Under the pieces are notes generated by a model. The model was given only the letters and a program-made list of their open reading frames with translations. It had not been told where the DNA came from and made no database searches. A stretch of 64,000 nt of DNA from Cepaea nemoralis. Its lineage: Eukaryota > Mollusca > Gastropoda > Stylommatophora > Helicidae. This document shows positions 825 through 58,010 of this stretch, piece by piece; position 1 is the first letter of the stretch, and every line of letters begins with the position of its first letter. Location: NCBI GenBank assembly GCA_014155875.1, contig JACEFZ010021689.1, forward strand, positions 62,001 through 126,000, given 5' to 3'. Position numbers and translations under genes: made by a program.

Positions 825-976
825 CCCCCCTGCCGTGCGTCCCCCTTTGGGCCGAAGGTAGAGGGGCTTGTGAGTTCCAATGACCACAAGAGCTATGCCG
901 ACGGTAGCACTGCTACTGGTAGGGGCCACCCATGTCGGACAGGTCAAGGGAGAGGACCAGACGAAGATGACAGCAC
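825..976 (+). ncRNA. Degenerate HDV-like ribozyme at LINE copy 1 5' end
   Basis: This is the same position as the well-formed folds in copies 2 and 3. The 3' strand of P1 (AGAGGGG, 860-866) is intact, but the 5' strand reads CCCCCCT, giving one mismatch. P2 (GTGCGTC, 835-841) faces GACAGCAC (969-976), which holds one extra base. The P3 and L3 region is also altered. The copy is probably inactive. The call rests on hand folding and on comparison with the other copies. Confidence 0.5.
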
Positions 977-1104
977 AAACCTGCTGCCTTGTAGGTAGAC
1001 TGGGGACAGTCAAAGGCTAGGGAAAGCATCCCGAATAAAGTGCTTGTCGAAATCGGATGTACTGAGCCACAGGCTTGACAAAGCAGTGCAACGTAACTTA
1101 ATTC

Positions 1105-4100
1105 ATGATGTCACAAATCAAAATTAATCGTTATGGTGCTAATCCCGTGAAGTCCCATCAGGCGGTGATAGTGCCGGGCCCCCTGCCTCGAGGGGGTCCA
1201 CCCATGACTACTGGTGGTCACCTTCCCCTGTGCTGTGGAGTCAAGGCACAGAGGAGTAGGTTAAGAGCTATTGACCAAATACCCCGGACACTCAACATAC
1301 TACAGTGGAATGCCGAAGGAGTTTACAAGAAGAAAGACTCCCTAACACAGCGTCTTCATAAAGATAGAATAGATGTGGCATGCATTCAAGAGACACACCT
1401 CAACGCCAATCACAAATTCTCAGTCAGAGGATATCAGGCCACACGTTTCGACCGCGAAGGACACAAAGGAGGAGTTCTAATACTTACACGAAATACAATA
1501 CCTTGCAGCGAAGTATCTGTGATCTCTGACAACCAAACGGAAATTATAGGTGTTGATATAATGATAAAGGACGTGAAAATAAGAATCTACAATCTGTATA
1601 GCCCAGCAGATAAGGACCTTACACTCTCAAACATGAAAATAACTGACACAAACTGCATTATTGTCGGAGACTTTAATAGCCGTTCAGAAAGATGGGGATA
1701 CCCAGATACTGACAAAAGAGGAGATGAATTGGAGGACTGGGAAATAGACTCAAATCTCCATCTACTCAACAAAGCGGATGACACACCGAGCTTCTACTCC
1801 AGAAGATGGCTTACCACTTCTACTCCAGACTTAGCTTTCTGCACAGGAGACATCCTCCACAAAATCGATCGCCATGTGCTGGACCAATTAGCAGGTAGTG
1901 ACCACAGACCAATCAAGCTTGTAATGAATATGGAGTATGTTCCACAGGAGCAAAAGCCCTTGCCCCGCTGGAATTACAAACGAGCAGATTGGGACAGATT
2001 TGCCATACTAACAGACAAATATTGTGAAAACATAAATACACGATATGGCAACATAAAGCAAATGGTGGAAAGTCTAAATAGGGCGATAATACAGGCAGCC
2101 ACTGAGTCCATTCCTAGAGGAGCGAGGAAAAATTACAAACCATACTGGACTGAAGAACTACAAAGTTTGGAGGACAAAGTTGAAGATGCCAGGAAGACAG
2201 CAGAGAGAGAACAAACAATTGAAGCGAACATCTCTCTCAAAGCCATCTCAGCAAAATATAAAAGAACAGTAAATCAAACAACAAGAGATTGTTGGAGGGA
2301 AAAAACAGAAAACCTGAATTTTGACAGGGATGGAAACAAACTATGGAAACTAGTGAAAGCCATGAACAATGAAGGACCTAGAAACAAACAAATAACAATT
2401 AAACAAGGAAATGCCTTGCTTACAGGAAAAAAGGCTGCAAATGCACTAATGGAACACTATGCAAATGCAAACCACATTGATATTACAACCGAACAGAAGA
2501 AAGCAATCAAAGACAAACAGATACATCATAGAAATACAGAGACAGCAGCAGAATATATGATGGCAAATCTAACAATGGAAGAAATGGAACAGGCAATGAA
2601 TACCCTAAAAAAGAAGAAATCACCAGGAAAGGATGGAATCACAAATGAAATGCTAATAGGACTAGGCACCAAGGCAAAGAAGAAACTACTAGCAGTCCTA
2701 AATAACAGCTGGAAGAGAGGAATAGTCCCACAGGCATGGAAGGAAGCTATACTAATACCAGTCCCAAAGAAAGGAAAAGACCTGGAAGAACCAAATGGCT
2801 ATCGACCTATCAGTCTACTTAGCTGTGTAGGAAAATTAATGGAACGCATTATCAATGGCAGGCTAACATGGCATCTGGAAGAAAACAAACTCTTAACACC
2901 ACACCAAGCAGGATTCAGAAAGTACAGATCCACTGAAGATCAAATAGCCTATATATCTCAGGAAATAGAGGATGCCTTCCAAGAGAAAAAGCACACACTA
3001 GCAGTCTGGATAGATTTAGAAAAAGCATTTGATAAAGTATGGAAGGAAGGACTGAAAGTAAAACTGCAAAACATGCATGTTTGTGGAAAAATGTATAAAT
3101 GGATCAGCCACTACCTTGAGAACAGAACTGCCAGGACAAAAGTACAAGGACAAACAAGCAAAATGATGCTGCTGGAGCAAGGTGTCCCCCAAGGAGGAGT
3201 TCTTTCACCAACATTATTCCTAGCATATATAAATGACATCACAGAAAATTTTCCAGCCAGAGTACACACATCCTCCTTTGCAGATGACCTAGCCATATGG
3301 ACATCTGAAGAATATATTAGTACAGCTAACAGCAGAATACAGCAAGCCTTATTAGCGCTAGAGGACTGGTCAAAATCATGGCTAGTGAAGATAAGTGAGG
3401 AGAAAACAACATGCACAGTGTTCTCCCTCTCAAATAAAACTCAGCAACCTAAGCTGGTATTGAATGGAAAAATATTGCGCCATGAAGAAAATCCAAACTA
3501 TCTAGGAGTCACCTTTGATCGTCGCCTGACATGGAAGACACAGGTTGAGAAAAATCGAACAAGAGCAAGGCAGAGAATGGCAATCATGAAAAAGCTTGCT
3601 GGTACAACGTGGGGAGCAGATGAGAAAGTTCTCAAGAAGTTATATACTGGACGTGTGAGGCCAGTACTGGAATATGGCATTGCAGCTTGGGCAACAGCAG
3701 CTAAGTCAAACTTTAACAAAATAAGTAGAGTCCAAAATCAAGGAATGCGAATCATAACTGGAAGCCTGAAGACAACGCCTATTAATGAACTAGAAAAGAT
3801 CACTTGTTTACAACCAATGCAGGATAGAAGAGATAGCAGAGCCCAGCAACAAGCAGAAAAATTTAGAAGATTGACAGACCACCCTATGTACAACAGATTT
3901 AATGGTTTTGGAAAGGGAAGACTGAAGCGTAGCAACTTTGTAGAAACTGCAAAACGAAGGATTAGGGCAGATCCTATACTTAACATATCAACAGTCAAGC
4001 CCATACACAATGCACACAAGTTCCCAGCTTGGAGACAGCAGCAACTGCCTGAGATGATAGAAAACATTCCTGGTATTGAGAAAAAGAACACTCAGCATGA

Positions 4101-4955
4101 AACCGAAAGAAGAGAAATAACCCTAAACTACATAAAAGAACATTACCCAAGCAGGAATTGGACCCATGCATATACAGATGGATCAGCCAAAAATTCAATA
4201 GAGAATGGAGGAGGAGGAATTCTCCTAAATTTAAAAAATGGAGTGAAAAAAACACATTCAATGGCAACTGGAAAATTTTCAAGTAACTTCAAAGCGGAGG
4301 TAGAGGCTTGAAAACTGCAGCAGAAATGCTCCTGATGGAGGAAAATAAAGAGAAGCAAATAGCTATCTTCACAGATGCAAAGTCAGCTGTCTCAATACTG
4401 AAGAGCAATAACAGCACAGAACTAACTGACCTAAGAGCAGCACTCCATGGTCTATGCCAGAAATCCAAAAAAGTTGTAATACAGTGGATCCCATCACATT
4501 GCAGTATACCTGGAAACGAAGAGGCTGACAGACTGGCAAAAGAGGGCGGACGACTACCACAGCCTGACATAGACATAACCTATAATGAGGCAAAGAGGTT
4601 GATAAAAAGCACTTATAGAACCAAATGGGAATCAGAGCATCCAGGCCATCAGAAGGATGATGCATATTACAAACTCGACCGAAGAGAACAAGTAGCAATC
4701 TTCAGACTCCGCACAGGACATAACAGGCTGAAATACCACTTGTTCAATAAACTAAAGATAGGAGATACCGATGAATGTAATTGTAGAACTGGAAAAATGA
4801 CAGCAAAACATTTGCTGCAGGATTGCCCAACGTATGCAGAACAGAGAAAGATATTTTGGCCCACACCTGCTTCATTTGAGGACAAGCTCTATGGAGATAT
4901 CAACAAGCTCAAGTTGACCGCAGCTTACTTTAACTACATACAGGTTGACATTTAA
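1105..4955 (+). pseudogene. LINE copy 1 polyprotein, one frameshift
   Basis: Encodes the same polyprotein as the intact copy at 9280-13131. The first 1068 codons are open through endonuclease and reverse transcriptase and into RNase H, ending at a TGA at 4309-4311. There the copy reads GAGGCTTGAAAA where copy 2 has one more T. The frame then continues at 4308-4955 through the rest of RNase H and the zinc knuckle. Besides this indel only a few residues differ from copy 2 (for example V for E near residue 273, and A/S for T/A near 615-618). The break is either a very recent mutation or a base missed in a homopolymer. Confidence 0.88.
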
Positions 4956-4969
4956 AGGTGCATGAAGAC

Positions 4970-5240
4970 CCAGAGGCATGAAATGGAATATTGCTTGGAT
5001 AGCAAATCCATTATGTGGAAAGTCCAAATCGAAAGCTCGCTGTGTGGGCTTCATAAAAGGTGGAAAAGTGTCCTAGTGGCACGAAATGGAATATTGCTTG
5101 GATAGCAAATCCATTACGTGGAAAGTCCGAATCAAAAGCCCATTGTGTGGGCTTCATAAAAGGTGGAAAAGTGTCCTAGTGGCATGAAATGGAATATTGC
5201 TTGGATAGCAAATCCATTACATGGAAAGTCCGAATCGAAA
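4970..5240 (+). repeat. Three ~103-bp tandem repeats in LINE 3' UTR
   Basis: Units begin near 4979, 5083 and 5185 with (A/C)TGAAATGGAATATTGC-type starts and each includes GTGGAAAGTCC and AAAAGGTGGAAAAGTGTCC. The same array is present in copy 2 (about 13145-13415) and copy 3 (minus, about 26125-26395). Internal tandem repeats in a LINE 3' UTR are a feature of this family. Confidence 0.85.
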
Positions 5241-5939
5241 GCTCACTGTGTGGATGTCATCTGCAGACTGCATACTTCTGGTTTCCGGAAGAACAGCCTA
5301 TGGTGAACGGAAGGCCCAATATACGGAAGTGAGGCTAAGCAGCCATGTGCAGGACGTGACGATTCCTTGGGTGAGCCCAGTACCAGAGCGCTATGTATCG
5401 GCTCTGCAAGTATGGAAGCCTCCTTGGATGGCGGGGAATGCCCATGGTCTGCCCCTGCCTTCCCTTGAGGGCTGACCAGGATCTTTGGCTGTTCTATATG
5501 GACCAGCTGGGATGGGGGATAACACCACAACAGTGAGAGTCAAACGTCCTAAGAAACCCCCGGGAAGGTTAACCCGGTCAACAAATGCCCGCAGAAGTCG
5601 GATGTGTCGGCCTAACGGCGCAAGAACGCAGCTCTGCTGTAAACAGGCACAACGCAATCACATCCGAAAAAAAACTCCGGATGAACGAAGAAGAAGAAGA
5701 AGAAATCCCTCGCCTTTCATTACCGTTCTAACTAACCAATGTGACATTTAATACAGCCAAATTATTTCAGTTTCCAAGCCATGATGTTTATGAGACAGTT
5801 TTTCCCTTTCCCTGCTCAGATCTTGTAAAAATATAGGGGCTTTTCATATCCTTGAGGTATTTTTGGCTTATAGTACTACTCATATTTTATACACCAATTG
5901 GTAATGTGGTCAGTAAACATGCCAGCCGCCTTTACATTC

Positions 5940-8429: not shown

Positions 8430-8888
8430 AATAAAAAAAATCGGGGGAAAACTGAAGAATTACCCCTGCTGGATCATTTTTTGATCCCTATCTTTAAGAA
8501 AGGAGAAAATTCCAGTTGAAAATTATAGAGGTTTATCACTACTGACCAAAAGCTATAAGATACTATCCGCAGTTTACTAAATAGACTAAAACCTTTTCCA
8601 GAATAAAAATTGGTGACTACCAGGCGGGTTTTGAAAAAACCAGATAAATAATAATCAGATATTTTTTTACGAAAAATAGCCAAAAAAAATTGGGAATAAA
8701 AGAGATCTCCATAACATTTTGGGGGGTTTTTAAAAAAGGTTTTATGATATGTCCGGGGAAAATATTTTAGGGAAATGCAAATGGGGGAAATTTTGGAATA
8801 CCAAGGAATTTAATCAACATGACCAGATTATGCATGGATTTTTAAAATAAAAATTAAATTTAATGTGGGGAAAAAAAACCCTTTTTCC
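8430..8888 (+). pseudogene. Decayed RTE-like LINE, 5' part of the RT domain
   Basis: The plus strand carries broken RT motifs: LIPIFKKGE (block 1), a degraded NYRG-SLL-YKILS region, then IPRNLINMTRLCM. The text resumes after LINE copy 2 at 13882, so copy 2 inserted into this older element. Runs of A, G and T are inflated compared with relatives, which destroys the frame. Confidence 0.65.
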
Positions 8889-9034
8889 CCCCTCTGCTGT
8901 GTGTCCACCGTGACGAGGTAGAGGGGCTTGTGCGTCCCAATGACCCCAAGAGCTATGCCGACGGTAGCACAGCTACTGGTAGGGCCACCCATGTCGGACA
9001 GGTCAAGGGAGAGGGACCAGACGAAGAGACACAC
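8889..9034 (+). ncRNA. HDV-like self-cleaving ribozyme candidate, LINE copy 2
   Basis: Hand folding gives the nested double-pseudoknot order of HDV-like ribozymes. P1 is CCCCTCT (8889-8895) with AGAGGGG (8920-8926). P2 is GTGTGTC (8899-8905) with GACACAC (9028-9034). P3 is ACC (8907-8909) with GGT (8917-8919), closing a 7-nt L3. A P4 arm includes GTCCC with GGGAC. The J4/2 strand CGAAG starts at 9022 with the presumptive catalytic C. Predicted cleavage is 5' of 8889, the element boundary. Such ribozymes are known at the 5' ends of R2, RTE and trypanosome L1Tc/ingi elements. Activity is inferred. Confidence 0.72.
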
Positions 9035-9037
9035 AAA

Positions 9038-9270
9038 CCTGCTGCCTTGTAGGTAGACTGGGGACAGTCAAAGGCTAGGGAAAGCACCCCAAATACATGC
9101 TTGTCGAAATCGGATGTACTGAGCCACAGGCTTGACAAAGCAGTGCAACGTGAAACCTGCTGCCTTGTAGGTAGACTGGGGACAGTCAAAGGCTAGGGAA
9201 AGCATCCCGAATAAATGCTTGTCGAAATCGGATGTACTGAGCCACAGGCTTGACAAAGCAGTGCAACGTA
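9038..9270 (+). repeat. 118-bp tandem duplication in LINE copy 2 5' UTR
   Basis: CCTGCTGCCTTGTAGGTAGA starts at 9038 and again at 9156, and each unit ends with CAGTGCAACGT. Copies 1 and 3 have a single unit. The duplication lies between the ribozyme fold and the start codon. Confidence 0.9.
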
Positions 9271-9279
9271 ACTTAATTC

Positions 9280-12200
9280 ATGATGTCACAAATCAAAATT
9301 AATCGATATGGTGCTAATCCCGTGAAGTCCCATCAGGCGGTGATAGTGCCGGGCCCCCTGCCTCGAGGGGGTCCACCCATGACTACTGGTGGTCACCTTC
9401 CCCTGTGCTGTGGAGTCAAGGCACAGAGGAGTAGGTTAAGAGCTATTGACCAAATACCCCGGACACTCAACATACTACAGTGGAATGCCGAAGGAGTTTA
9501 CAAGAAGAAAGACTCCCTAACACAGCGTCTTCATAAAGATAGAATAGATGTGGCATGCATTCAAGAGACACACCTCAACGCCAATCACAAATTCTCAGTC
9601 AGAGGATATCAGGCCACACGTTTCGACCGCGAAGGACACAAAGGAGGAGTTCTAATACTTACACGAAATACAATACCTTGCAGCGAAGTATCTGTGATCT
9701 CTGACAACCAAACGGAAATTATAGGTGTTGATATAATGATAAAGGACGTGAAAATAAGAATCTACAATCTGTATAGCCCAGCAGATAAGGACCTTACACT
9801 CTCAAACATGAAAATAACTGACACAAACTGCATTATTGTCGGAGACTTTAATAGCCGTTCAGAAAGATGGGGATACCCAGATACTGACAAAAGAGGAGAT
9901 GAATTGGAGGACTGGGAAATAGACTCAAATCTCCATCTACTCAACAAAGCGGATGACACACCGAGCTTCTACTCCAGAAGATGGCTTACCACTTCTACTC
10001 CAGACTTAGCTTTCTGCACAGGAGACATCCTCCACAAAATCGATCGCCATGTGCTGGACCAATTAGCAGGTAGTGACCACAGACCAATCAAGCTTGAAAT
10101 GAATATGGAGTATGTTCCACAGGAGCAAAAGCCCTTGCCCCGCTGGAATTACAAACGAGCAGATTGGGACAGATTTGCCATACTAACAGACAAATATTGT
10201 GAAAACATAAATACACGATATGGCAACATAAAGCAAATGGTGGAAAGTCTAAACAGAGCGATAATACAGGCAGCCACTGAGTCCATTCCAAGAGGAGCGA
10301 GGAAAAATTACAAACCATACTGGACTGAAGAACTACAAAGTTTGGAGGACAAAGTTGAAGATGCCAGGAAGACAGCAGAGAGAGAACAAACAATTGAAGC
10401 AAACATCTCTCTCAAAGCCATCTCAGCAAAATATAAAAGAACAGTAAATCAAACAACAAGAGATTGTTGGAGGGAAAAAACAGAAAACCTGAATTTTGAC
10501 AGGGATGGAAACAAACTATGGAAACTAGTGAAAGCCATGAACAATGAAGGACCTAGAAACAAACAAATAACAATTAAACAAGGAAATGCCTTGCTTACAG
10601 GCAAAAAGGCTGCAAATGCACTAATGGAACACTATGCAAATGCAAACCACATTGATATTACAACCGAACAGAAGAAAGCAATCAAAGACAAACAGATACA
10701 TCATAGAAATACAGAGACAGCAGCAGAATATATGATGGCAAATCTAACAATGGAAGAAATGGAACAGGCAATGAATACCCTAAAAAAGAAGAAATCACCA
10801 GGAAAGGATGGAATCACAAATGAAATGCTAATAGGACTAGGCACCAAGGCAAAGAAGAAACTACTAGCAGTCCTAAATAACAGCTGGAAGAGAGGAATAG
10901 TCCCACAGGCATGGAAGGAAGCTATACTAATACCAGTCCCAAAGAAAGGAAAAGACCTGGAAGAACCAAATGGCTATCGACCTATCAGTCTACTTAGCTG
11001 TGTAGGAAAATTAATGGAACGCATTATCAATGGCAGGCTAACATGGCATCTGGAAGAAAACAAACTCTTAACACCACACCAAGCAGGATTCAGAAAATAC
11101 AGATCCACTGAAGATCAAATAACCTATATAGCTCAGGAAATAGAGGATGCCTTCCAAGAGAAAAAGCACACACTAGCAGTCTGGATAGATTTAGAAAAAG
11201 CATTTGATAAAGTATGGAAGGAAGGACTGAAAGTAAAACTGCAAAACATGCATGTTTGTGGAAAAATGTATAAATGGATCAGCCACTACCTTGAGAACAG
11301 AACTGCCAGGACAAAAGTACAAGGACAAACAAGCAAAATGATGCTGCTGGAGCAAGGTGTCCCCCAAGGAGGAGTTCTTTCACCAACATTATTCCTAGCA
11401 TATATAAATGACATCACAGAAAATTTTCCAGCCAGAGTACACACATCCTCCTTTGCAGATGACCTAGCCATATGGACATCTGAAGAATATATTAGTACAG
11501 CTAACAGCAGAATACAGCAAGCCTTATTAGCGCTAGAGGACTGGTCAAAATCATGGCTAGTGAAGATAAGTGAGGAGAAAACAACATGCACAGTGTTCTC
11601 CCTCTCAAATAAAACTCAGCAACCTAAGCTGGTATTGAATGGAAAAATATTGCGCCATGAAGAAAATCCAAACTATCTAGGAGTCACCTTTGATCGTCGC
11701 CTGACATGGAAGACACAGGTTGAGAAAAATCGAACAAGAGCAAGGCAGAGAATGGCAATCATGAAAAAGCTTGCTGGTACAACGTGGGGAGCAGATGAGA
11801 AAGTTCTCAAGAAGTTATATACTGGACGGGTGAGGCCAGTACTGGAATATGGCATTGCAGCTTGGGCAACAGCAGCTAAGTCAAACTTTAACAAAATAAG
11901 TAGAGTCCAAAACCAAGGAATGCGAATCATAACTGGAAGCCTGAAGACAACGCCTATTAATGAACTAGAAAAGATCACTTGTTTACAACCAATGCAGGAT
12001 AGAAGAGATAGCAGAGCCCAGCAACAAGCAGAAAAATTTAGAAGATTGACAGACCACCCTATGTACAACAGATTTAATGGTTTTGGAAAGGGAAGACTGA
12101 AGCGTAGCAACTTTGTAGAAACTGCAAAACGAAGGATTAGGGCAGATCCTATACTTAACATATCAACAGTCAAGCCCATACACAATGCACACAACTTCCC

Positions 12201-13131
12201 AGCTTGGAGACAGCAGCAACTGCCTGAGATGATAGAAAACATTCCTGGTATTGAGAAAAAGAACACTCAGCATGAAACCGAAAGAAGAGAAATAACCCTA
12301 AACTACATAAAAGAACATTACCCAAGCAGGAATTGGACCCATGCATATACAGATGGATCAGCCAAAAATTCAATAGAGAATGGAGGAGGAGGAATTCTCC
12401 TAAATTTAAAAAATGGAGTGAAAAAAACACATTCAATGGCAACTGGAAAATTTTCAAGTAACTTCAAAGCGGAGGTAGAGGCTTTGAAAACTGCAGCAGA
12501 AATGCTCCTGATGGAGGAAAATAAAGAGAAGCAAATAGCTATCTTCACAGATGCAAAGTCAGCTGTCTCAATACTCAAGAGCAATAACAGCACAGAACTA
12601 ACTGACCTAAGAGCAGCACTCCATGGTCTATGCCAGAAATCCAAAAAAGTTGTAATACAGTGGATCCCATCACATTGCAGTATACCTGGAAACGAAGAGG
12701 CTGACAGACTGGCAAAAGAGGGCGGACGACTACCACAGCCTGACATAGACATAACCTATAATGAGGCAAAGAGGTTGATAAAAAGCACTTATAGAACCAA
12801 ATGGGAATCTGAGCATCCAGGCCATCAGAAGGATGATGCATATTACAAACTCGACCGAAGAGAACAAGTAGCAATCTTCAGACTCCGCACAGGACATAAC
12901 AGGCTGAAATACCACTTGTTCAATAAACTAAAGATAGGAGATACTGATGAATGTAATTGTAGAACTGGAAAAATGACAGCAAAACATTTGCTGCAGGATT
13001 GCCCAACGTATGCAGAACAGAGAAAGATATTTTGGCCCACACCTGCTTCATTTGAGGACAAGCTCTATGGAGATATCAACAAGCTCAAGTTGACCGCAGC
13101 TTACTTTAACTACATACAGGTTGACATTTAA
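9280..13131 (+). CDS. Non-LTR retrotransposon polyprotein (EN-RT-RNase H-zinc knuckle)
   Basis: An intact 1283-residue protein. Its N-terminal ~60 residues are unassigned. An AP-endonuclease domain (about 62-275) shows LQWNAEG (N69), QETHL (E96), VGDFNSR (D189), TPDLAF (D242) and GSDHRPI (H267). The reverse transcriptase (about 500-800) shows KSPGKDGI, GYRPISLL, WIDLEKAFDK (D637), GVPQGGVLSP and FADD (D727-D728). RNase H (about 1018-1150) has TDGS (D1025), AEVE (E1065), FTDAKSA (D1091) and SHCSIPGNEEAD (H1132, D1142). The C-terminal knuckle is C1225-x-C1227...H1236-x4-C1241. The enzyme would nick target DNA and prime cDNA synthesis from it. The start is the tandem ATG at 9280. No separate gag-like ORF1 is seen, which fits Ingi/Vingi-type elements. 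Confidence 0.93.
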   Translation: MMSQIKINRYGANPVKSHQAVIVPGPLPRGGPPMTTGGHLPLCCGVKAQRSRLRAIDQIPRTLNILQWNAEGVYKKKDSLTQRLHKDRIDVACIQETHLNANHKFSVRGYQATRFDREGHKGGVLILTRNTIPCSEVSVISDNQTEIIGVDIMIKDVKIRIYNLYSPADKDLTLSNMKITDTNCIIVGDFNSRSERWGYPDTDKRGDELEDWEIDSNLHLLNKADDTPSFYSRRWLTTSTPDLAFCTGDILHKIDRHVLDQLAGSDHRPIKLEMNMEYVPQEQKPLPRWNYKRADWDRFAILTDKYCENINTRYGNIKQMVESLNRAIIQAATESIPRGARKNYKPYWTEELQSLEDKVEDARKTAEREQTIEANISLKAISAKYKRTVNQTTRDCWREKTENLNFDRDGNKLWKLVKAMNNEGPRNKQITIKQGNALLTGKKAANALMEHYANANHIDITTEQKKAIKDKQIHHRNTETAAEYMMANLTMEEMEQAMNTLKKKKSPGKDGITNEMLIGLGTKAKKKLLAVLNNSWKRGIVPQAWKEAILIPVPKKGKDLEEPNGYRPISLLSCVGKLMERIINGRLTWHLEENKLLTPHQAGFRKYRSTEDQITYIAQEIEDAFQEKKHTLAVWIDLEKAFDKVWKEGLKVKLQNMHVCGKMYKWISHYLENRTARTKVQGQTSKMMLLEQGVPQGGVLSPTLFLAYINDITENFPARVHTSSFADDLAIWTSEEYISTANSRIQQALLALEDWSKSWLVKISEEKTTCTVFSLSNKTQQPKLVLNGKILRHEENPNYLGVTFDRRLTWKTQVEKNRTRARQRMAIMKKLAGTTWGADEKVLKKLYTGRVRPVLEYGIAAWATAAKSNFNKISRVQNQGMRIITGSLKTTPINELEKITCLQPMQDRRDSRAQQQAEKFRRLTDHPMYNRFNGFGKGRLKRSNFVETAKRRIRADPILNISTVKPIHNAHNFPAWRQQQLPEMIENIPGIEKKNTQHETERREITLNYIKEHYPSRNWTHAYTDGSAKNSIENGGGGILLNLKNGVKKTHSMATGKFSSNFKAEVEALKTAAEMLLMEENKEKQIAIFTDAKSAVSILKSNNSTELTDLRAALHGLCQKSKKVVIQWIPSHCSIPGNEEADRLAKEGGRLPQPDIDITYNEAKRLIKSTYRTKWESEHPGHQKDDAYYKLDRREQVAIFRLRTGHNRLKYHLFNKLKIGDTDECNCRTGKMTAKHLLQDCPTYAEQRKIFWPTPASFEDKLYGDINKLKLTAAYFNYIQVDI

Positions 13132-13881
13132 AGGTGCATGAAGACCCAGAGGCATGAAATGGAATATTGCTTGGATAGCAAATCCATTATGTGGAAAGTC
13201 CAAATCGAAAGCTCGCTGTGTGGGCTTCATAAAAGGTGGAAAAGTGTCCTAGTGGCACGAAATGGAATATTGCTTGATAGCAAATCCATTACGTGGAAAG
13301 TCCGAATCAAAAGCCCATTGTGTGGGCTTCATAAAAGGTGGAAAAGTGTCCTAGTTGAATGAAATGGAATATTGCTTGGATAGCAAATCCATTACGTGGA
13401 AAGTCCGAATCGAAAGCTCACTGTGTGGATGTCATCTGCAGACTGCATACTTCTGGTTTCCGGAAGAACAGCCTATGGTGAACGGAAGGCCCAATATACG
13501 GAAGTGAGGCTAAGCAGCCATGTGCAGGACGTGACGATTCCTTGGGTGAGCCCAGTACCAGAGCGCTATGTATCGGCTCTGCAAGTATGGAAGCCTCCTT
13601 GGATGGCGGGGAATGCCCATGGTCTGCCCCTGCCTTCCCTTGAGGGCTGACCAGGATCTTTGGCTGTTCTATATGGACCAGCTGGGATGGGGGATAACAC
13701 CACAACAGTGAGAGTCAAACGTCCTAAGAAACCCCCGGGAAGGTTAACCCGGTCAACAAATGCCCGCAGAAGTCGGATGTGTCGGCCTAACGGCGCAAGA
13801 ACGCAGCTCTGCTGTAAACAGGCACAACGCAATCACATCCGAAAAAAAAACTCCGGATGAACGAAGAAGAAGAAGAAGAAG

Positions 13882-17770: not shown

Positions 17771-18112
17771 ATAATTACAGGTATTGTATGAATGTGCAGC
17801 ATCTGTTATACCCACAGTAACTTCAAATTTAACACGGACTCATCTGTTTTCCAACAATTGGATGGTACCTCCTAATAGCTAACACCTCTCTATATTTGAG
17901 CAAGTGTTTATTTGTTGGGGGAAGCCCCAAAAAGAGAACCTTAACCAATACAGTTCGTGGCGACTGCACTAGCCAAGCGGCCTTAATTCCTCAGGCTCAA
18001 GACCCCCCCCCCCCTTAAACAATTTATAGTTTGTCGAATACGGTATATGGATAGATTTTTCTTTAGTGTTCACGTTTGTTCACTTTACAATTACTAATTA
18101 AACAGTAACAAC

Positions 18113-18255
18113 CCGGGAAGGTTAACCTGGTCAACAAATGTCCGCAGAAGTCGGATGTGTCTGCCTAACGGCGCAAGAACACAGCTCTGCTGTAAAAAGG
18201 CACAAGGCAATCATATCCGGAAAAAAAAACTCCGGATGAACGCAGCAGAAGAGAA
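18113..18255 (+). mobile_element. Tail-only LINE/SINE copy
   Basis: Begins at CCCGGGAAGGTTAACC and runs to the ATCCGG...CCGGAT hairpin and a GAAG-rich tail. It equals the last ~140 bp of the Ingi-like LINE. An AAACAGT duplication is seen on both sides (before 18110 and after 18258). It lies in PHB2 intron 6. Confidence 0.75.
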
Positions 18256-18379
18256 GAAACAGTTAAAAAACAAAATGGACACACACTTTAGCAAGTCTAC
18301 TAATAACAATTTTTGCCTACCAAGACAGCCCAGCCCAGGGTCAATCCTCACAGTGGCAGGATATATTTATAAATACATG

Positions 18380-18560
18380 TCCCAACTGCAGTGGCATAGT
18401 GGTTAGTTCACTGGCCTGCCAAGGCTAGTGGTCTGGGTTCAATCCCCAGCAGAGATGAGATTATTTCTCCTGACCAACTACAACTCTGGAATCGACTCAG
18501 CCGCACAAAAAATGGTTACCAGAGCACATGTGGACTCGCTGGTATTAGGTCTAGGTTGGT
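18380..18560 (+). repeat. tRNA-derived SINE
   Basis: TGGCATAGTGGTTAGTTCAC (box A-like, from about 18393) and TCTGGGTTCAATCCCCAG (box B-like, about 18432-18449) have tRNA-like spacing, followed by an unrelated body. It is too diverged in the acceptor stem to call as a tRNA gene. Confidence 0.7.
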
Positions 18561-25636: not shown

Positions 25637-26398
25637 AACTGTTTGTTTCTTCTTCTTCTTCTTCGTTCATCCGGAGTTTTTTTTTTCCGGATGTGATTGC
25701 GTTGTGCCTGTTTACAGCAGAGCTGCGTTCTTGCGCCGTTAGGCCGACACATCCGACTTCTGCGGGCATTTGTTGACCGGGTTAACCTTCCCGGGGGTTT
25801 CTTAGGACGTTTGACTCTCACTGTTGTGGTGTTATCCCCCATCCCAGCTGGTCCATATAGAACAGCCAAAGATCCTGGTCAGCCCTCAAGGGAAGGCAGG
25901 GGCAGACCATGGGCATTCCCCGCCATCCAAGGAGGCTTCCATACTTGCAGAGCCGATACATAGCGCTCTGGTACTGGGCTCACCCAAGGAATCGTCACGT
26001 CCTGCACATGGCTGCTTAGCCTCACTTCCGTATATTGGGCCTTCCGTTCACCATAGGCTGTTCTTCCGGAAACCAGAAGTATGCAGTCTGCAGATGACAT
26101 CCACACAGTGAGCTTTCGATTCGGACTTTCCATGTAATGGATTGCTATCCAAGCAATATTCCATTTCATGCCACTAGGACACCTTTCCACCTTTATGAAG
26201 CCCACACAATGGGCTTTTGATTCGGACTTTCCACGTAATGGATTTGCTATCCAAGCAATATTCCATTCGTGCCACTAGGACACTTTTCCACCCTTTTATG
26301 AAGCCCACACAGCGAGCTTTCGATTTGGACTTTCCACATAATGGAATTTGCTATCCAAGGCAATATTCCATTTCATGCCTCTGGGTCTTCATGCACCT

Positions 26399-29300
26399 TT
26401 AAATGTCAACCTGTATATAGTTAAAGTAAGCTGCGGTCAACTTGAGCTTGTTGATATCTCCATAGAGCTTGTCCTCAAATGAAGCAGGTGTGGGCCAAAA
26501 TATCTTTCTCTGTTCTGCATACGTTGGGCAATCCTGCAGCAAATGTTTTGCTGTCATTTTTCCAGTTCTACAATTACATTCATCGGTATCTCCTATCTTT
26601 AGTTTATTGAACAAGTGGTATTTCAGCCTGTTATGTCCTGTGCGGAGTCTGAAGATTGCTACTTGTTCTCTTCGGTCGAGTTTGTAATATGCATCATCCT
26701 TCTGATGGCCTGGATGCTCTGATTCCCATTTGGTTCTATAAGTGCTTTTATCAACCTCTTTGCCTCATTATAGGTTATGTCTATGTCAGGCTGTGGTAGT
26801 CGTCCGCCCTCTTTTGCCAGTCTGTCAGCCTCTTCGTTTCCAGGTATACTGCAATGTGATGGGATCCACTGTATTACAACTTTTTTGGATTTCTGGCATA
26901 GACCATGGAGTGCTGCTCTTAGGTCAGTTAGTTCTGTGCTGTTATTGCTCTTCAGTATTGAGACAGCTGACTTTGCATCTGTGAAGATAGCTATTTGCTT
27001 CTCTTTATTTTCCTCCATCAGGAGCATTTCTGCTGCAGTTTTCAGAGCCTCTACCTCCGCTTTGAAGTTACTTGAAAATTTTCCAGTTGCCATTGAATGT
27101 GTTTTTTTCACTCCATTTTTTAAATTTAGGAGAACTCCTCCTCCTCCATTCTCTATTGAATTTTTGGCTGATCCATCTGTATATGCATGGGTCCAATTCC
27201 TGCTTGGGTAATGTTCTTTTATGTAGTTTAGGGTTATTTCTCTTCTTTCGGTTTCATGCTGAGTGTTCTTTTTCTCAATACCAGGAATGTTTTCTATCAT
27301 CTCAGGCAGTTGCTGCTGTCGCCAAGCTGGGAACTTGTGTGCATTGTGTATGGGCTTGACTGTTGATATGTTAAGAATAGGATCTGCCCTAATCCTTCGT
27401 TTTGCAGTTTCTACAAAGTTGCTACGCTTCAGTCTTCCCTTTCCAAAACCATTAAATCTGTTGTACATAGGGTGGTCTGTCAATCTTCTAAATTTTTCTG
27501 CTTGTTGCTGGGCTCTGCTATCTCTTCTATCCTGCATTGGTTGTAAACAAGTGATCTTTTCTAGTTCATTAATAGGCGTTGTCTTCAGGCTTCCAGTTAT
27601 GATTCGCATTCCTTGGTTTTGGACTCTACTTATTTTGTTAAAGTTTGACTTAGCTGCTGTTGCCCAAGCTGCAATGCCATATTCCAGTACTGGCCTCACC
27701 CGTCCAGTATATAACTTCTTGAGAACTTTCTCATCTGCTCCCCACGTTGTACCAGCAAGCTTTTTCATGATTGCCATTCTCTGCCTTGCTCTTGTTCGAT
27801 TTTTCTCAACCTGTGTCTTCCATGTCAGGCGACGATCAAAGGTGACTCCTAGATAGTTTGGATTTTCTTCATGGCGCAATATTTTTCCATTCAATACCAG
27901 CTTAGGTTGCTGAGGTTTATTTGAGAGGGAGAACACTGTGCATGTTGTTTTCTCCTCACTTATCTTCACTAGCCATGATTTTGACCAGTCCTCTAGCGCT
28001 AATAAGGCTTGCTGTATTCTGCTGTTAGCTGTGCTAATATATTCTTCAGATGTCCATATGGCTAGGTCATCTGCAAAGGAGGATGTGTGTACTCTGGCTG
28101 GAAAATTTTCTGTGATGTCATTTATATATGCTAGGAATAATGTTGGTGAAAGAACTCCTCCTTGGGGGACACCTTGCTCCAGCAGCATCATTTTGCTTGT
28201 TTGTCCTTGTACTTTTGTCCTGGCAGTTCTGTTCTCAAGGTAGTGGCTGATCCATTTATACATTTTTCCACAAACATGCATGTTTTGCAGTTTTACTTTC
28301 AGTCCTTCCTTCCATACTTTATCAAATGCTTTTTCTAAATCTATCCAGACTGCTAGTGTGTGCTTTTTCTCTTGGAAGGCATCCTCTATTTCCTGAGCTA
28401 TATAGGTTATTTGATCTTCAGTGGATCTGTACTTTCTGAATCCTGCTTGGTGTGGTGTTAAGAGTTTGTTTTCTTCCAGATGCCATGTTAGCCTGCCATT
28501 GATAATGCGTTCCATTAATTTTCCTACACAGCTAAGTAGACTGATAGGTCGATAGCCATTTGGTTCTTCCAGGTCTTTTCCTTTCTTTGGGACTGGTATT
28601 AGTATAGCTTCCTTCCATGCCTGTGGGACTATTCCTCTCTTCCAGCTGTTATTTAGGACTGCTAGTAGTTTCTTCTTTGCCTTGGTGCCTAGTCCTATTA
28701 GCATTTCATTGTGATTCCATCCTTTCCTGGTGATTTCTTCTTTTTTAGGGTATTCATTGCCTGTTCCATTTCTTCCATTGTTAGATTTGCCATCATATAT
28801 TCTGCTGCTGTCTCTGTATTTCTATGATGTATCTGTTTGTCTTTGATTGCTTTCTTCTGTTCAGTTGTAATATCAATGTGGTTTGCATTGGCATAGTGTT
28901 CCATTAGTGCATTTGCAGCCTTTTTTCCTGTAAGCAAGGCATTTCCTTGTTTAATTGTTATTTGTTTGTTTCTAGGTCCTTCATTGTTCATGGCTTTCAC
29001 TAGTTTCCATAGTTTGTTTCCATCCCTGTCAAAATTCAGGTTTTCTGTTTTTTCCCTCCAACGATCTCTTGTTGTTTGATTTACTGTTCTTTTATATTTT
29101 GCTGAGATGGCTTTGAGAGAGGTATTCGCTTCAATTGTTTGTTCTCTCTCTGCTGTCTTCCTGGCATCTTCAACTTTGTCCTCCAAACTTTGTAGTTCTT
29201 CAGTCCAGTATGGTTTGTAATTTTTCCTCGCTCCTCTTGGAATGGACTCAGTGGCTGCCTGTATTATTGCTCTGTTTAGACTTTCCACCATTTGCTTCAT

Positions 29301-30248
29301 GTTGCCATATCGTGTATTTATGTTTTCACAATATTTGTCTGTTAGTATGGCAAATCTGTCCCAATCTGCTCGTTTGTAATTCCAGCGGGGCAAGGGCTTT
29401 TGCTCCTGTGGAACATACTCCATATTCATTACAAGCTTGATTGGTCTGTGGTCACTACCTGCTAATTGGTCCAGCACATGGCGATCGATTTTGTGGAGGA
29501 TGTCTCCTGTGCAGAAAGCTAAGTCTGGAGTAGAAGTGGTAATCCATCTTCTGGAGTAGAAGCTCGGTGTGTCATCCGCTTTGTTGAGTAGATGGAGATT
29601 TGAGTCTATTTCCCAGTCCTCCACTTCATCTCCTCTTTTGTCAGTATCTGGGTATCCCCATCTTTCTGAACGGCTATTAAAGTCTCCGACAATAATGCAA
29701 TTTGTGTCAGTTATTTTCATGTTTGAGAGTGTAAGATCCTTATCTGCTGGGCTATAAAGATTGTAAATTCTTATTTTCACGTCCTTTATCATTATATCAA
29801 CACCTATAATTTCTGTTTGGTTGTCAGAGATCACAGATACTTCGCTGCAAGGTATTGTATTTCGTGTAAGTATTAGAACTCCTCCTTTATGTCCTTCGCG
29901 GTCGAAACGTGTGGCCTGATATCCCCTGACTGAAAATTTGTGCTTGGCGTTGAGGTGTGTCTCTTGAATGCATGCCACATCTATTCTATCTTTATGAAGA
30001 CGCTGTGTCAGGGATTCTTTCTTGTTATAAACTCCTTCGGCATTCCACTGTAGTATGTTGAGTGTCCTTGGTATTTGGTCAATAGCTCTTAACCTACTCC
30101 TCTGTGCCTTGACTCCACAGCACAGGGGAAGGTGACCACCAGTAGTCATGGGTGGACCCCCTCGAGGCAGGGGGCCCGGCACTATCACCGCCTGATGGGA
30201 CTTCACGGGATTAGCACCATAACGATTAATTTTCATCTGTGGCATCAT
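26399..30248 (-). pseudogene. LINE copy 3 polyprotein, two frameshifts
   Basis: From ATG at 30248 the endonuclease and start of RT are open to 28698, where one A is missing (ATCACAATGAAATG against ATCACAAATGAAATG in copy 2). RT and RNase H then continue to near 26751, where an A5 run reads A4. The zinc-knuckle part follows to the stop at 26399. Catalytic motifs (WIDLEKAFDK, FADD, TDGS, FTDAKSA) are preserved. Both breaks lie in homopolymers and may be sequencing artefacts. Confidence 0.88.
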
Positions 30249-30378
30249 GAAATGATAAAGTTACGTTGCACTGCTTTGTCAAGCCTGTGGCTCAGTACAT
30301 CCGATTTCGACAAGCATATTTTGGGGTGCTTTCCCTAGCCTTTGACTGTCCCCAGTCTACCTACAAGGCAGCAGGTTT

Positions 30379-30524
30379 GTGCGTCACTTCGTCTGGTCCC
30401 TCTCCCTTGACCTGTCCGACATGGGTGACCCTACCAGTAGCTGTGCTACCGTCGGCATAGCTCTTGGGGTCATTGGAACGCGGAAGCCCCTCTACCTCGT
30501 CAAGGTGGACGCACGGCAGAGGGG
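30379..30524 (-). ncRNA. HDV-like ribozyme candidate, LINE copy 3
   Basis: Same fold as in copy 2. P1 is CCCCTCT (30524-30518) with AGAGGGG (30493-30487). P2 is GTGCGTC (30514-30508) with GACGCAC (30385-30379). P3 is ACC/GGT around a 7-nt loop TTGACGA. J4/2 is CGAAG. Against copy 2, the P2 pair has C-G where copy 2 has T-A on both strands, a compensated change. Predicted cleavage is at 30524/30525, the exact border of the target-site duplication. Confidence 0.74.
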
Positions 30525-30537
30525 AACTGTTTGTTTC

Positions 30538-30985
30538 ATTCCCTTACTTTCATTAGCTTACAGACAACTCAATTATTTGTTTCATTCCGTTGCTTTCATT
30601 AGCTTACAGCCAATTCAATTATTTATTACATCCCCTTGCTTTCATTAGCTTACAGACAATTCAATTGTTTCACCCCTTGCTTTCATTAGCTTACAGCCAA
30701 TTCAATTATTTGTTTCACCCCCTTGCTTTCATTAGCTTAAGCCAATTCAATTATTTATTACATCCCCTTGCTTTCATTAGCTTACAGCCAATTCAATTAT
30801 TTGTTTCACCCCCTTGCTTTCATTAGCTTACAGCCAAATTTAATTATTTGTTTCACCCCTTGCTTTCATTAGCTTACAGCCAATTCAATTATTTGTTTCA
30901 CCCCTTGCTTTCATTAGCTTACAGCCAATTCAATTATTTGTTTCATCCCTTGCTTTCATTAGCTTACATCCAATTCAATGCAAAA
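30538..30985. repeat. 46-bp minisatellite, right part
   Basis: About ten units of 42-47 bp, each with CATTAGCTTACAGCCAATTC and AATTATTTGTTTCA. It continues the array split by LINE copy 3. Unit length and content vary slightly. Confidence 0.9.
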
Positions 30986-42562: not shown

Positions 42563-43194
42563 ATTATCTAAATATTTAAATGCGTCTCCTTTTTAGACCA
42601 CGGAGCGATCTTATCCCACCCTTCTATGTTTTGAAATGTCCAGTATAGCAATTATATTTCTTACTAATTCTTTACTATTCACAATACAAATACCCCATTA
42701 CAGGCTTCGAACAGTCCCTGTCCCCACTGTCACAGAAGGCCACATATATCATCCCAGAATGTATCTCGATCTACAATGAAGATGGACAAATTAAGGATGC
42801 TTCACATATAATATGTGGCCCTTGGCAAATGTTATATGATATTATCGTGGTTGTGTTTGAGTAGAGGTGTAGTGGTGTAGACATTACCCACAATCTGTGG
42901 GTATATGGTCATCTTAGCCATTCCACGTACGTGATGAAAGATCTTAACTCACATGAGGCTTAACGCAGAAACTGATCGTCCCTGACGTTTAGGTACGTTT
43001 GTGTTAACATCACTGAACAATTGAGCTGCTGAAACAACTTTTGACGGAACGGTTGCAAAGAAAAGGGTGTCTGATTAAGTGACATGGACTTAGGACATTT
43101 CATTTCTCATGACGGAACAGATATCGGAAGTCAGGAGATATAACTACAGGCGTGTGCAACTACTGGAAAGTCCTCCTCGATTCGACAGTAGAAT

Positions 43195-43299
<105 letters not shown>

Positions 43300-43827
43300 A
43301 GTGGTAATTTTGAATGATAGACGTAAACACAAGGGCGGTGGGTGTGAATGTTTAGAGAAATATAAGATTGTATATGTGTAAATAGTAAAACCTACACATT
43401 TTTGAATGTATTTCCAAGCTCTCACCAAGGGCGCCAGGTTTTCTTGAGATCTTGTTCAGTGACAACGAGGAGAGACCAGTTGGAGCCAGGACTGGACAGT
43501 GGTTCATAATACCGGCCAAGAAGATCCTAGCTGACCTAAATGGACCCTTTTGGATCTTAGTGAAATCTATTGCAATCGAGGCAGTTCTCACCTGTATGGA
43601 AATCCTGGATTCCCGATGACTTGCAACAACTAACACCATCAGTTATGTATTGTATTTTTGTATGTTGTTGTAAACTAACTTATCCATATCACCATACCGC
43701 CCAACCTCACGTTACTTTAAGTTGTGATTTTGATAGAGAATAAATTGATTGTAGTTTGTTTTAACTCATAGTTCAAATCGTTGTACTTTTTTTTTTCTTC
43801 AAAGGAAGCAATTGCATTGCTATCTGG

Positions 43828-43902
43828 GGGGGGGGGGTGGGTGGGGGGGGGGGGGGGGGTAATTACAACCAAGGAAAGGGGTATTGTCGGGGGGGGGGGG
43901 GA
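43828..43902 (+). repeat. G homopolymer tracts
   Basis: Two G runs interrupted by T, A and ATTGTC. The counterpart at 50816-50880 differs in run length, as expected for error-prone homopolymers. G runs of this kind can form quadruplexes. Confidence 0.85.
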
Positions 43903-46043: not shown

Positions 46044-46075
<32 letters not shown>

Positions 46076-46488: not shown

Positions 46489-46559
46489 GTATGAAGATAT
46501 AATTTATAAACCAGTGCTGCTCATGTCATGTATATTTAATCTTTAAGTGAGATTCCCTC

Positions 46560-46700
46560 ATGTGTGCCTTCACCTCGTGGTGGTGGACAGACTTTTGTGT
46601 CTCAGTGATCCTCCAAGAGCTATGCCGACAGTAGCATCACTACATTCAGGGTCTCCGAAGAGAAACGTGTTCGTCTTATTGCATCAGCAGATGTCATCCT
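46560..46700 (+). pseudogene. Diverged LINE 5' UTR fragment (left unit)
   Basis: CCTTCACCTCGTGGTGGTGG and CAAGAGCTATGCCGACAGTA align with the 5' UTR of the Ingi-like LINE (GAGCTATGCCGACGGTAGC). The P1 pairing of the ribozyme fold is not maintained. A truncated relative; the copy is repeated at about 53545-53690. Confidence 0.6.
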
Positions 46701-50177: not shown

Positions 50178-50280
<103 letters not shown>

Positions 50281-53544: not shown

Positions 53545-53690
53545 TCCCCTCATGTGTGCCTTCACCTCGTGGTGGTGGACAGACTTTTGTGTCTCAGTGA
53601 TCCTCCAAGAGCTATGCCGACAGTAGCATCACTACATTCAGGGTCTCCGAAGAGAAACGTGTTCGTCTTATTGCATCAGCAGATGTCATC
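53545..53690 (+). pseudogene. Diverged LINE 5' UTR fragment (right unit)
   Basis: Right-unit partner of 46560-46700 with the same AGAGCTATGCCGACAGTAGC segment. It is non-functional by the same reasoning. Confidence 0.6.
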
Positions 53691-55794: not shown

Positions 55795-56978
55795 CTTCTT
55801 CTTCTTTGCGATCATCCGGAGTGTTTTTTTCAGATGTGATTGCGGTGTGTCTGTTATGTGCCCTTGGGCCGAAACCCGTAGGCCAACACATCGACTTTAG
55901 CGTGCTTTTTTGACCAGGTAGCATTCCTGGGAGACTCTCACTTTTGCGGTGCCGTCTGCAACCCAGCTGGCCAGGATGGAACGGTCGAAGACAACGGTCA
56001 TCCCTCAAAGGAAGGCCGGGACAGTCCATAGCATTTTCCGCCATCCAAGGTTGCTTCCATAGTTGCAGGGCCGACACATAGCGCCCTGGTTCTGGGCTAG
56101 CCGAGGGAATCGTCACGTCCTGCTTATGGCTGCTTTAAATCCTCACTTCAATATATTGGGCTTTCCTTCACCACGGGCCGTTCCTGCACAAACCAGACAA
56201 GTCTGCAGATGGTATCCACTCAGCGAGTTTTCGGACATGTGCTTGTCCTTGCGCCCTTCAGAGCTGTTCCAGGCACGGCGGACATTCGGAAAACTACCTA
56301 GTCAGAGCTGTTCCGAGCAAGAGCGGCATTCGGAAACTAGGTAGTCAGAGCTGTTCCTAGCACGAGAGACAAATGGACGAGACGTTTCACTCGGACGTAA
56401 AATGCGTAGTGCCAGTTTTTATTTTGCCACCCGTAGGCCAGCACTGCCGGCTTCGGCGGGCATTTTTTAATGAGGTTAGCCTTCCTCGGGTTTTGAGGCA
56501 CCGTTAGACTTATTGTTGTGATGCCGCCCACATCTCAGCTGGTCAGGATAGAACGGTCAACGACAAAATGGTCAACCCTAAAGGGAAGGCAGGGACAGAT
56601 CATGGGCATTCTCTCGCTATCCAAGGAGGCTTCCATAATTGCAGAGCCGGCACATATTGCTCTGAGACTGGGCTCACCCGAGGAGTTGCCACGTCCTGCT
56701 CATGGCTGCTTTAGTTCCTCACTTCCATATGTTGGGCATCTCGCTTGCCACTGGCCGCTCAAGCACACACCAGGAACGGTCAGACTGTGGGCGACATCCA
56801 CTCGGTAAGCTTTGCTTTTGACTTCGGACCACGCAATAGGTTCGCTCGCCGTGCGTTCCATTTCGCGTCATTGAGACGTTCTTCCACTTTTGTCTACACT
56901 CTCTATGAGTTAGATACAGACAGTTTGCATAACCATTTCCTTCGACTAGGGCACTTTTCTGACTTTTTGTACTCGCTC
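55795..56978 (-). pseudogene. Two truncated LINE 3' UTR copies (right unit)
   Basis: Partner of 48795-49980, in the same order and orientation, ending at the duplication border. Confidence 0.65.
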
Positions 56979-57019
56979 ACAAGGTAGGCTACATGTGCTG
57001 CCGGCTCAGCACCTTACCT

Positions 57020-57290
57020 TCGTGCAGCAGTGAACGAGAAACGGCCTGGCCCTCTCATCCGGGGATCTCTCATATCCCCCAGCTGAGAGCCTTCGAACTT
57101 GTATCAGACCTGAGCATGTAGCTTGCTCAGTATCACGTCTCTATTTTTCGGTAGGCGGGTATCGGCCTGGCTCTCAGATCCGAGGGTTTGTGGCTTAGAG
57201 GCGTTCAGCCACAGCCCTCGACAGGGAGCCTTATGTGTTTTGTCCGGACCAAGAACTTCTGCCTTCGTGCGCCTGATTTAAACTTCTGAC
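57020..57290 (-). rRNA. Possible 28S rRNA 3'-terminal fragment
   Basis: The minus strand contains TGAACGCCTCTAAG (about 57197-57210), a signature of the 3' end of eukaryotic 28S rRNA, within a GAGGG...CCCTC hairpin context. Sequence before and after is GC-richer than the surroundings. It lies downstream of the 18S piece in rRNA order, but nearly the whole rRNA unit between is missing. The limits are uncertain. Confidence 0.5.
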
Positions 57291-57460
57291 TGTTATCCTC
57301 ACCTCAGTCTAACCCGCAGAGCAGCAGGTTGTGTCTCTCTTAGTCTGGCCCCTATCCCATAAGCTGTCCGATATGTAGTTTTCTCCCATCGGCAAGCACA
57401 TGGGGTCAGAGGGACACACAAGCTCCCCCATCGCGGCAAGGTGGAGACACATCGGGGGAG
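57291..57460 (-). mobile_element. 5' end of a LINE inserted in 18S rDNA
   Basis: About 170 nt of 5' UTR related to the Ingi-like LINE: P1/P2 sequences, GAGCTTGTGTGTCCC, CTTGCCGATGG and CAACCTGCTGC in the same order. It joins 18S sequence at 57460/57461. The rest of the element is absent, and 28S-like sequence follows. It is a different subfamily from copies 1-3. Confidence 0.7.
57330..57460 (-). ncRNA. HDV-like ribozyme candidate at the 18S/LINE junction
   Basis: P1 is CTCCCCC (57460-57454) with GGGGGAG (57429-57423). P2 is TGTGTCTC (57451-57444) with GAGACACA (57337-57330). P4 can form from TCTGACCCC with GGGGCCAGA (one mismatch). J4/2 reads CTAAG, as in HDV. P3 (ACC with GAT) is weakened by one G-to-A change. 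The helices keep pairing although the sequences differ from copies 2 and 3. The predicted cut falls exactly at the rRNA junction. Confidence 0.68.
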
Positions 57461-57574
57461 CCTCGACTGATTTAATGATCCATTCGCGATTTCACCGTGA
57501 GACAGTGTGAACTTAGACATGCATGGCTTAATCTTTGAGACAAGCATATGACTACTGGCAGGATCAACCAGATA
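57461..57574 (-). rRNA. 18S rRNA 5'-terminal fragment (~114 nt)
   Basis: The minus strand starts TATCTGGTTGATCCTGCCAG and continues TAGTCATATGCTTGTCTCAA, GATTAAGCCATGCATGTCTA and ends AAATCAGTCGAGG. This is the universal 5' end of eukaryotic 18S rRNA. It has one change from the usual GAATGGCTCATT (GAATGGATCATT) and one in ACGGTGAAAYCGCG. The gene is cut at ~114 nt by the LINE 5' end. It lies inside ILKAP intron 2, so it is a displaced fragment. Confidence 0.92.
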
Positions 57575-58010
57575 TCTATCGGACAGACGGACTATTCACG
57601 CACACGCAAGCCAAGAGTAGCATCGCTAAAGCGCGCCCTCCCGGTACAAGGTGATACATGCAAAACCACTGGACGCCTACCGACGAGCTTTCAAGCTACG
57701 CCGGCAGGACTGACCGAAAAAAAGCTATACCAGCTTACTGACTGCAGGCCCACTACTCATCGAGAGAGAGTGGGCGCTTATCGAGACTTTGTCGAACGGT
57801 CGTACAAATTTTGCTCTTTTGCCCGCTCAAACCACGACCCTGGCTGCACGATGCGGTTACATTCTTGAAACGCCTGCCTCGCTAACTCACGTTGGCTGGG
57901 AAGATCCCATTTTGGTGCACCTCACACAGCCATCCGAGACAACGAACGCTAGACGTGGAACTGATCTAGTGAACCAGACCAGCCCCACAGTTACGGCAAT
58001 ATAATCCACA
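57575..58010 (-). other. Possible rDNA external transcribed spacer
   Basis: GC-richer, low-repeat sequence directly upstream of the 18S 5' end, with no family match inside the window. Its position suggests 5' ETS. Transcribed spacers are poorly conserved, so this rests on position and composition only. Confidence 0.4.

Follow-up and report, generated by a model that had tools for sequence, protein, structure and literature searches.

Does the LINE that begins at position 8889 carry a self-cleaving HDV-like ribozyme at its very 5' end, and what would such a ribozyme have left behind in the genome? The locus lies in a window of 64,000 nucleotides, the whole stretch that was analysed (C20111:62001-126000 of a 3.47-Gb genome labelled G000), and the searches for further copies were performed in this same genome. 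LINE family A is represented in the window by copy 1 (826..5702, + strand; decayed ribozyme at 825-978, 12-bp target-site duplication AAATCCCTCGCC), copy 2 (8889..13880, +; 3' end GGATGAACG(GAA)n) and copy 3 (25647..30524, -; ribozyme at 30379-30524, 3' end approximate, 12-bp duplication AAACAAACAGTT adjoining P1), while copy 4 (55795..57460, -; ribozyme at 57330-57460) is a non-coding element of a second family, B. Copy 2 maintains a single ORF of 1283 aa (9280..13131, +) with endonuclease, reverse transcriptase and RNase H domains as detected with Pfam, whereas the frame is broken into two in copies 1 and 3. The element had been called Ingi-like in a sequence-only reading of the window, and that name stands as far as the order of the domains within one ORF and duplications of 11-14 bp go. 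Duplications of about 12 bp are typical of LINEs of the Ingi/L1Tc clade, and an Ingi/L1Tc-like LINE fits the data, the assignment being made from domain order and duplications. Littorina and Batillaria make up the few animals named among the at least 120 protein relatives listed, and the host is called mollusc-like here for that reason.

In copy 2 the predicted ribozyme runs from P1 to the 3' strand of P2 (8889..9034, +) and matches a strict descriptor. The 5' strand of P1, CCCCTCT (8889..8895, cleavage being predicted before 8889), is followed by the 5' strand of P2, GTGTGTC (8899..8905), by P3 (ACC/GGT) with the 7-nt L3 GTGACGA (8907..8919), and by the 3' strand of P1, AGAGGGG (8920..8926), the third base of L3, a G, being able to pair with the C directly after this strand as a one-pair P1.1. 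J1.1/4 and a large P4 domain then occupy 95 nt (8927..9021; outer stem GTCCC/GGGAC, inner stem CCGAC/GTCGG), ahead of J4/2, CGAAGA (9022..9027, predicted catalytic C at 9022), and of the 3' strand of P2, GACACAC (9028..9034), all on the + strand. Reading of the helices as well as the strict descriptor confirmed the earlier hand fold of copies 2 and 3 as an HDV-type nested pseudoknot, both with a 7-bp P1, 3-nt J1/2, 7-bp P2, 1-nt J2/3, 3-bp P3, 7-nt L3 and J4/2 CGAAG. The paired changes on which that fold had leaned were also recovered, namely P2 as GTGTGTC/GACACAC in copy 2 versus GTGCGTC/GACGCAC in copy 3 (30379-30524, -), and P1 as CCCCTCT/AGAGGGG in copy 2 versus CTCCCCC/GGGGGAG in copy 4 (57330-57460, -). 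The P2 of copy 4 reads GTGTCTC/GAGACAC, and the family B and family A ribozymes are set apart by compensated changes in both P1 and P2. The expected C of J4/2 is equally in place, with CGAAGA in copy 2 and CGAAG, CTAAG, CAAAG or CCAAG among the matches listed, for which the search pattern fixes the C. P3 is broken in copy 4 (ACC/GAT), and the ribozyme of copy 1 has decayed, P1 having a mismatch, L3 and the 3' strand of P2 insertions, and P3 an A to C change.

Might a conserved 5' UTR simply happen to match the pseudoknot? A loose descriptor with a 6-bp P2 found copies 2 and 3 together with two unrelated window sites, and 41 sites in 20 shuffles; at about two chance sites per window it is not significant alone, congruent with a chance origin. 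Rfam is likewise silent, the HDV-type models yielding no match at E<=1 in the whole window or at E<=10 in 8800-9300, and this outcome of the covariance search, which the sequence-only reading had itself listed as refuting, counts against a ribozyme. Models of the Rfam type are weak for pseudoknots. Copy 2 reaches 185.8 bits with our model R1, but belongs to that model's own alignment. Against chance, the strict descriptor, demanding Watson-Crick 7-bp P1 and P2, a 3-bp P3 and CNAA, matched copies 2 and 3 only, both at LINE 5' ends, with two sites in 51 shuffles, and for each of five co-changing P1/P2 pairs the alignment described below has 8 to 13 rows with the change, out of 32 distinct ones. 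We therefore hold a chance match to be extremely improbable.

Trained on the four copies of the window, a model recovered 8 further places at E 2.5e-7 or better within 200 kb of the contig that holds them; a ninth (E 0.72) was rejected as a simple repeat. It also detected a decayed 5' piece of a related ribozyme at 46554..46656 (+; 41.6 bits, E 7.7e-10) and the same piece in a tandem duplicate at 53546..53648 (+; 38.1 bits, E 6.5e-9). Genome-wide, a P4-J4/2 core pattern, in which the J4/2 C is set together with a large part of the P4 3' strands while P1, P2, P3 and the P4 5' strands are free, returned 19,769 matches with at most three mismatches (9,824 + 9,945), and 0 when reversed. The 5' half of the ribozyme is present in 29 of 30 loci cut out, all exact core matches in different flanks, L106 being the one without it. 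All seven pairs form in P1 at 25 and in P2 at 26 of these 29 pattern-picked loci, which display three P2 types, each matched with its own partner strand.

The alignment comprises 43 copies, 32 of them distinct, from one genome and two related families, with 29 of the 43 rows pattern-picked. The six helices contribute 28 pairs, with standard pairing in 96.9% of 892 cells, and the P1 and P2 changes are compensated, as the sequence-only reading had expected of further copies. Nine of the 28 pairs are changed on both sides (three in P1, two in P2, one in the outer and three in the inner P4 stem), counts behind which stand few independent events because all copies are related and changes are inherited. 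Slid controls pair in 29.5-52.1%, and 0 of 500 shuffles match the paired percentage or the nine both-changed pairs. By helix, 96.4% of cells are paired in the 7-bp P1 (three pairs changed on both sides), 96.4% in P2, the pseudoknot helix (two such pairs), and 97.9% in the 3-bp P3 with its short L3, without compensated change. The outer and inner P4 stems reach 95.6% and 99.4%, their 3' strands being partly pattern-fixed in 29 of 43 rows, and three of the four both-changed P4 pairs derive from a single row each. P1.1 hardly varies, being a single G-C in 29 and a G-U in one of the 32 distinct rows, with two rows unpaired, and the catalytic position of J4/2 holds C in 42 of 43 rows (pattern-fixed for 29) and U in L089. 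With P1-P3 only, 96.7% of 542 cells are paired with five both-changed pairs, a pair count that 371 of 500 shuffles reach, while the 57 both-changed cells, the score and the percentage paired are matched by none. As to further pair types, their number is reached by 500 of 500 shuffles, both with 28 pairs and with P1-P3 alone. Within the window, the four copies have 5 both-changed pairs out of 17 (reached by 4 of 500 shuffles) and 91.0% of 67 cells paired (slid controls 38-58%), the pair-type number being reached by 343 of 500 shuffles; eleven copies from the same contig only gave 93.5% and five both-changed pairs. Aggregated, the pairing, the compensated changes in P1, P2 and P4, the near-invariant J4/2 C and the exact 5' ends considered next strongly support the reading that the first ~146 nt of the LINE RNA would fold into an HDV-like self-cleaving ribozyme, its predicted fold having a P1 that, like that of trypanosomatid L1Tc, opens with a C-G pair, a 7-nt L3, a one-pair P1.1, a large P4 and a CNAAG J4/2.

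A cut at the predicted bond would give ends at P1 nucleotide 1, such as those observed. Among 11 leaderless copies with a resolved duplication (11-14 bp), 8 begin exactly at P1 nucleotide 1, which the duplication adjoins (copy 3, the family A copy of L088, L090:104, L101, L102, L104, L114 and L121), and 3 are uncertain by one base, being one C in copy 1 and in the family B copy of L086 and one intervening A in the family B copy of L088. The count leaves out L103, L115 and L123, with the 3' end outside the piece, as well as L089, L092 and L090:1030. The duplication of copy 3 is less telling, since the surrounding minisatellite repeats the duplicated letters; a 46-bp minisatellite at 30530-30979 adjoins this copy. 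The claim that cleavage site and element border coincide in all four window copies consequently survives in part: it holds for copy 3, with its 12-bp duplication in minisatellite, and for copy 1 give or take one C, the duplication of copy 2 is imperfect, and in copy 4 the site is not an insertion border. Ends at P1 nucleotide 1 would also result if transcription started at that base.

Some 1.6-1.7 kb of copy 4 are common to L088:5805 and L086:7782 (about 90%) and to L092 (about 74%), and the 3' end of family B, GGATGAACG(GAA)n or nearly so, resembles that of family A. The LINE ORF found no match in the four family B stretches searched (copy 4, L088:5805, L086:7782 and L092), and the longest stop-to-stop frame of copy 4 is 129 aa (frames of 90 aa or more considered), pointing to a non-autonomous relative. 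A stretch within family B, CTGAACGCCTCTAAG (e.g. near 57230, -), resembles what we take to be a conserved part of 28S rRNA; it was first read as flanking 28S, a reading rejected in favour of element sequence because other family B copies carry the same or a near version.

Immediately 5' of copy 4, on the - strand, lie the first ~114 nt of 18S rRNA (57461..57574; Rfam SSU_rRNA_eukarya, 64.2 bits from 57574) and, before these, a 413-nt pre-rRNA 5'-ETS leader, so named by its position before 18S (57575..57987). A 15-bp target-site duplication ATATTGCCGTAACTG has its 5' copy at 57988..58002, upstream of 5'-ETS and 18S, and its 3' copy at 55780-55794 (-), so that leader and copy 4 were inserted as one. 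The 18S-linked relative of the earlier description was thus partly misread: it is a non-coding element bearing the ribozyme 5' and the 3' end of the LINE, and its junction with 18S is not an insertion border. The same junction, TTAAATCAGTCGAGG joined to CTCCCC, has 29 matches with at most two mismatches (4 exact, 1 with one, 24 with two). Among the five best places, C2110 and C25987 have one common flank and C14085 and C20111 (copy 4) others, while the copy at C26475 is shortened within the leader. The duplication is 10-12 bp at C14085, imperfect at C26475, and at C2110 13 bp and located in a tandem repeat. A second 18S junction, TATCAAATGTCGATGG joined to CTCCCCC, leads into family B at C47, C266 and C304, with a 13-bp duplication enclosing leader and element at C266, as duplications also do at C20111 and C14085.

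A leader-start pattern gave 625 matches with at most two mismatches (339 + 286), starts elsewhere being outside this count. Seven were read, C47 and C266 with a core match nearby and C304, C490, C626, C674 and C981 as plus-strand matches listed early, with C931 and C951 passed over; the flanks, up to (G)TGGGGCTGG, differ among all seven. Altogether the leaders of 10 flanks open with (G)TGGGGCTGG or CGGGGCTGG, to within one or two nucleotides at a single base, which we infer to be the start of rRNA transcription. At C490, C626, C674 and C981 (L154-L163) the leader is followed by something other than family B at the tested distance, perhaps other chimeric or plain rRNA retrocopies.

We read the leader-bearing copies as uncleaved rRNA cotranscripts. 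Changes in or beside P1, L3 or P3 are present in copy 4, L136 (C14085) and L138 (C26475), and the broken P3 of copy 4 was considered as a general cause of the uncut leader; it was rejected, as P1, P2 and P3 are intact in the equally leader-bearing L113 (C47), L135 (C2110) and L137 (C25987). Since these three retain an uncut leader, cleavage would at best be incomplete. Such uncut copies with intact core helices are what one would expect if the 5' fold were kept for another role, such as protein binding or translation start, without any cutting, and the 5' ends arose from an internal promoter. Pr77 of L1Tc offers a precedent, being promoter and ribozyme both, with transcripts from +1 (PMC4748587). 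The J4/2 C is however kept in 42 rows, 29 of them pattern-fixed, and the fold is a specific pseudoknot, while the leaders place some element RNAs within, or joined to, a pre-rRNA transcript. We judge a fold without cutting to be improbable, if less so than chance.

Instead, we consider it very probable, judging from sequence, that the ribozyme cuts LINE RNA embedded in host transcripts. LINE RNA would be made as part of longer host RNAs and cut at the 5' border of P1; target-primed reverse transcription would then copy the trimmed molecule, giving new insertions that begin at P1 nucleotide 1. Family B, having the ribozyme and the LINE 3' end in common, would probably be mobilised in trans by the LINE machinery; its copies in 18S rDNA would be transcribed with pre-rRNA, and RNAs escaping cleavage inserted with the 5'-ETS/18S leader still attached. 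In this simplest model, release of the element from host transcripts by the ribozyme would be the rule, with exceptions.

The leaders alone may have another origin, if reverse transcriptase, on arriving at the 5' end of a cleaved element RNA, jumped to pre-rRNA and copied it to its 5' end. Both 18S junctions fall at P1 nucleotide 1, as such a switch would have it, and the leader starts at C490, C626, C674 and C981 continue into other than family B at the tested distance. Both junctions recur across flanks, however, the first in three full-leader flanks and the shortened C26475, the second in three, and the same two junctions in different flanks require a DNA source or a hotspot. Template switching appears doubtful to us, though it deserves real weight. 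A resident source is the counterpart, in which non-coding family B lives or lived at two 18S sites, transcribed from the rRNA promoter, with offspring either trimmed at P1 or untrimmed from the rRNA start; we hold this tentatively, at somewhat below even chances. A single pattern, designed for the border between the 3' side of family B and 18S, detected no family B inside rDNA. Site specificity of the R2 type was not observed either, the 29 usable loci having unrelated flanks with 18S only at L113. Should the 18S-resident source be true, the genome would record both the success and the failure of ribozyme cleavage in retrotransposition.

How does this LINE compare with known systems? Set against HDV as generally known, the LINE ribozyme has C-G as the first P1 pair and G-C as P1.1. 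Trypanosomatid L1Tc/ingi elements carry an HDV-like ribozyme in Pr77, of which the orientation of GC pairs in P1 and P1.1 differ from HDV (PMC4035085). L1TcRz/Pr77 and our ribozyme alike lie precisely where a LINE with endonuclease, RT and RNase H has its 5' end, and both also occur on non-autonomous relatives (PMC4035085; PMC4748587). Compared over Pr77 letters 1-24, taken from the primer and mutant list in PMC4748587, P1 opens with CCC in both Pr77 and family A, and CCACC followed by T at P3/L3 occupies letters 16-20 in Pr77 and 17-21 here. Pr77 is however 77 nt long and found in trypanosomatids, whereas the ribozyme here measures 131-146 nt, has a large P4 and belongs to a mollusc-like animal host. 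R2 ribozymes free their LINE from a 28S cotranscript, and resemble ours in being HDV-like, with a catalytic C and an rRNA cotranscript, the R2 P4 varying between species (PMC3774820); R2 is site-specific in 28S, whereas our LINE occurs in many unrelated flanks, with 18S only at some family B copies. The nested double pseudoknot with cleavage before P1, as predicted here, is common to the HDV, CPEB3, Anopheles Agam-2 and abalone ribozymes, the last being an already known example in a mollusc (PMC3774820). NARTc and SIDER (PMC4035085) and R2Dwi_SIDE (PMC3414825) are shorter relatives that keep the ribozyme, like family B, which differs from them in its 1.6-1.7 kb and in the pre-rRNA 5' leader of some copies. 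Among the open-licence papers listed, none described an HDV-like ribozyme on an Ingi-like animal LINE. HDV-like ribozymes are known to trim R2 and L1Tc RNAs, and the present case would add a trypanosome-like form borne by an animal LINE of very high abundance and by the non-coding relative of that LINE. Comparing cut with uncut copies could give the success rate of the ribozyme before insertion from the genome alone, and the leader starts mark the probable start base of pre-rRNA.

Outside this genome, no related locus was confirmed in viral contigs, whether with the protein, with a profile or with a DNA pattern. A relative is encoded at 163 places in contigs of prokaryote genomes, 80 of which were kept; L001-L010, at 25-30% identity, look like contamination from animal hosts. 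With a loose descriptor, applied up to 1500 nt upstream, L001 had no match and the other nine many chance-like ones.

A few minor features of the window complement the picture. Two tandem 117-118-nt repeats lie directly 3' of the copy 2 ribozyme (9035-9269), and are single in copies 1 and 3. The stretch 43009-56978 is a tandem duplication of ~7 kb units with 98% identity, the unit end (49975/56978) falling within the family B element. Finally, a copy of the LINE 3' end at 18112-18261 is located near a tRNA-like stretch at 18385-18457, which may head a SINE and scores 26.4 bits with the Rfam tRNA model, less than the gathering score.
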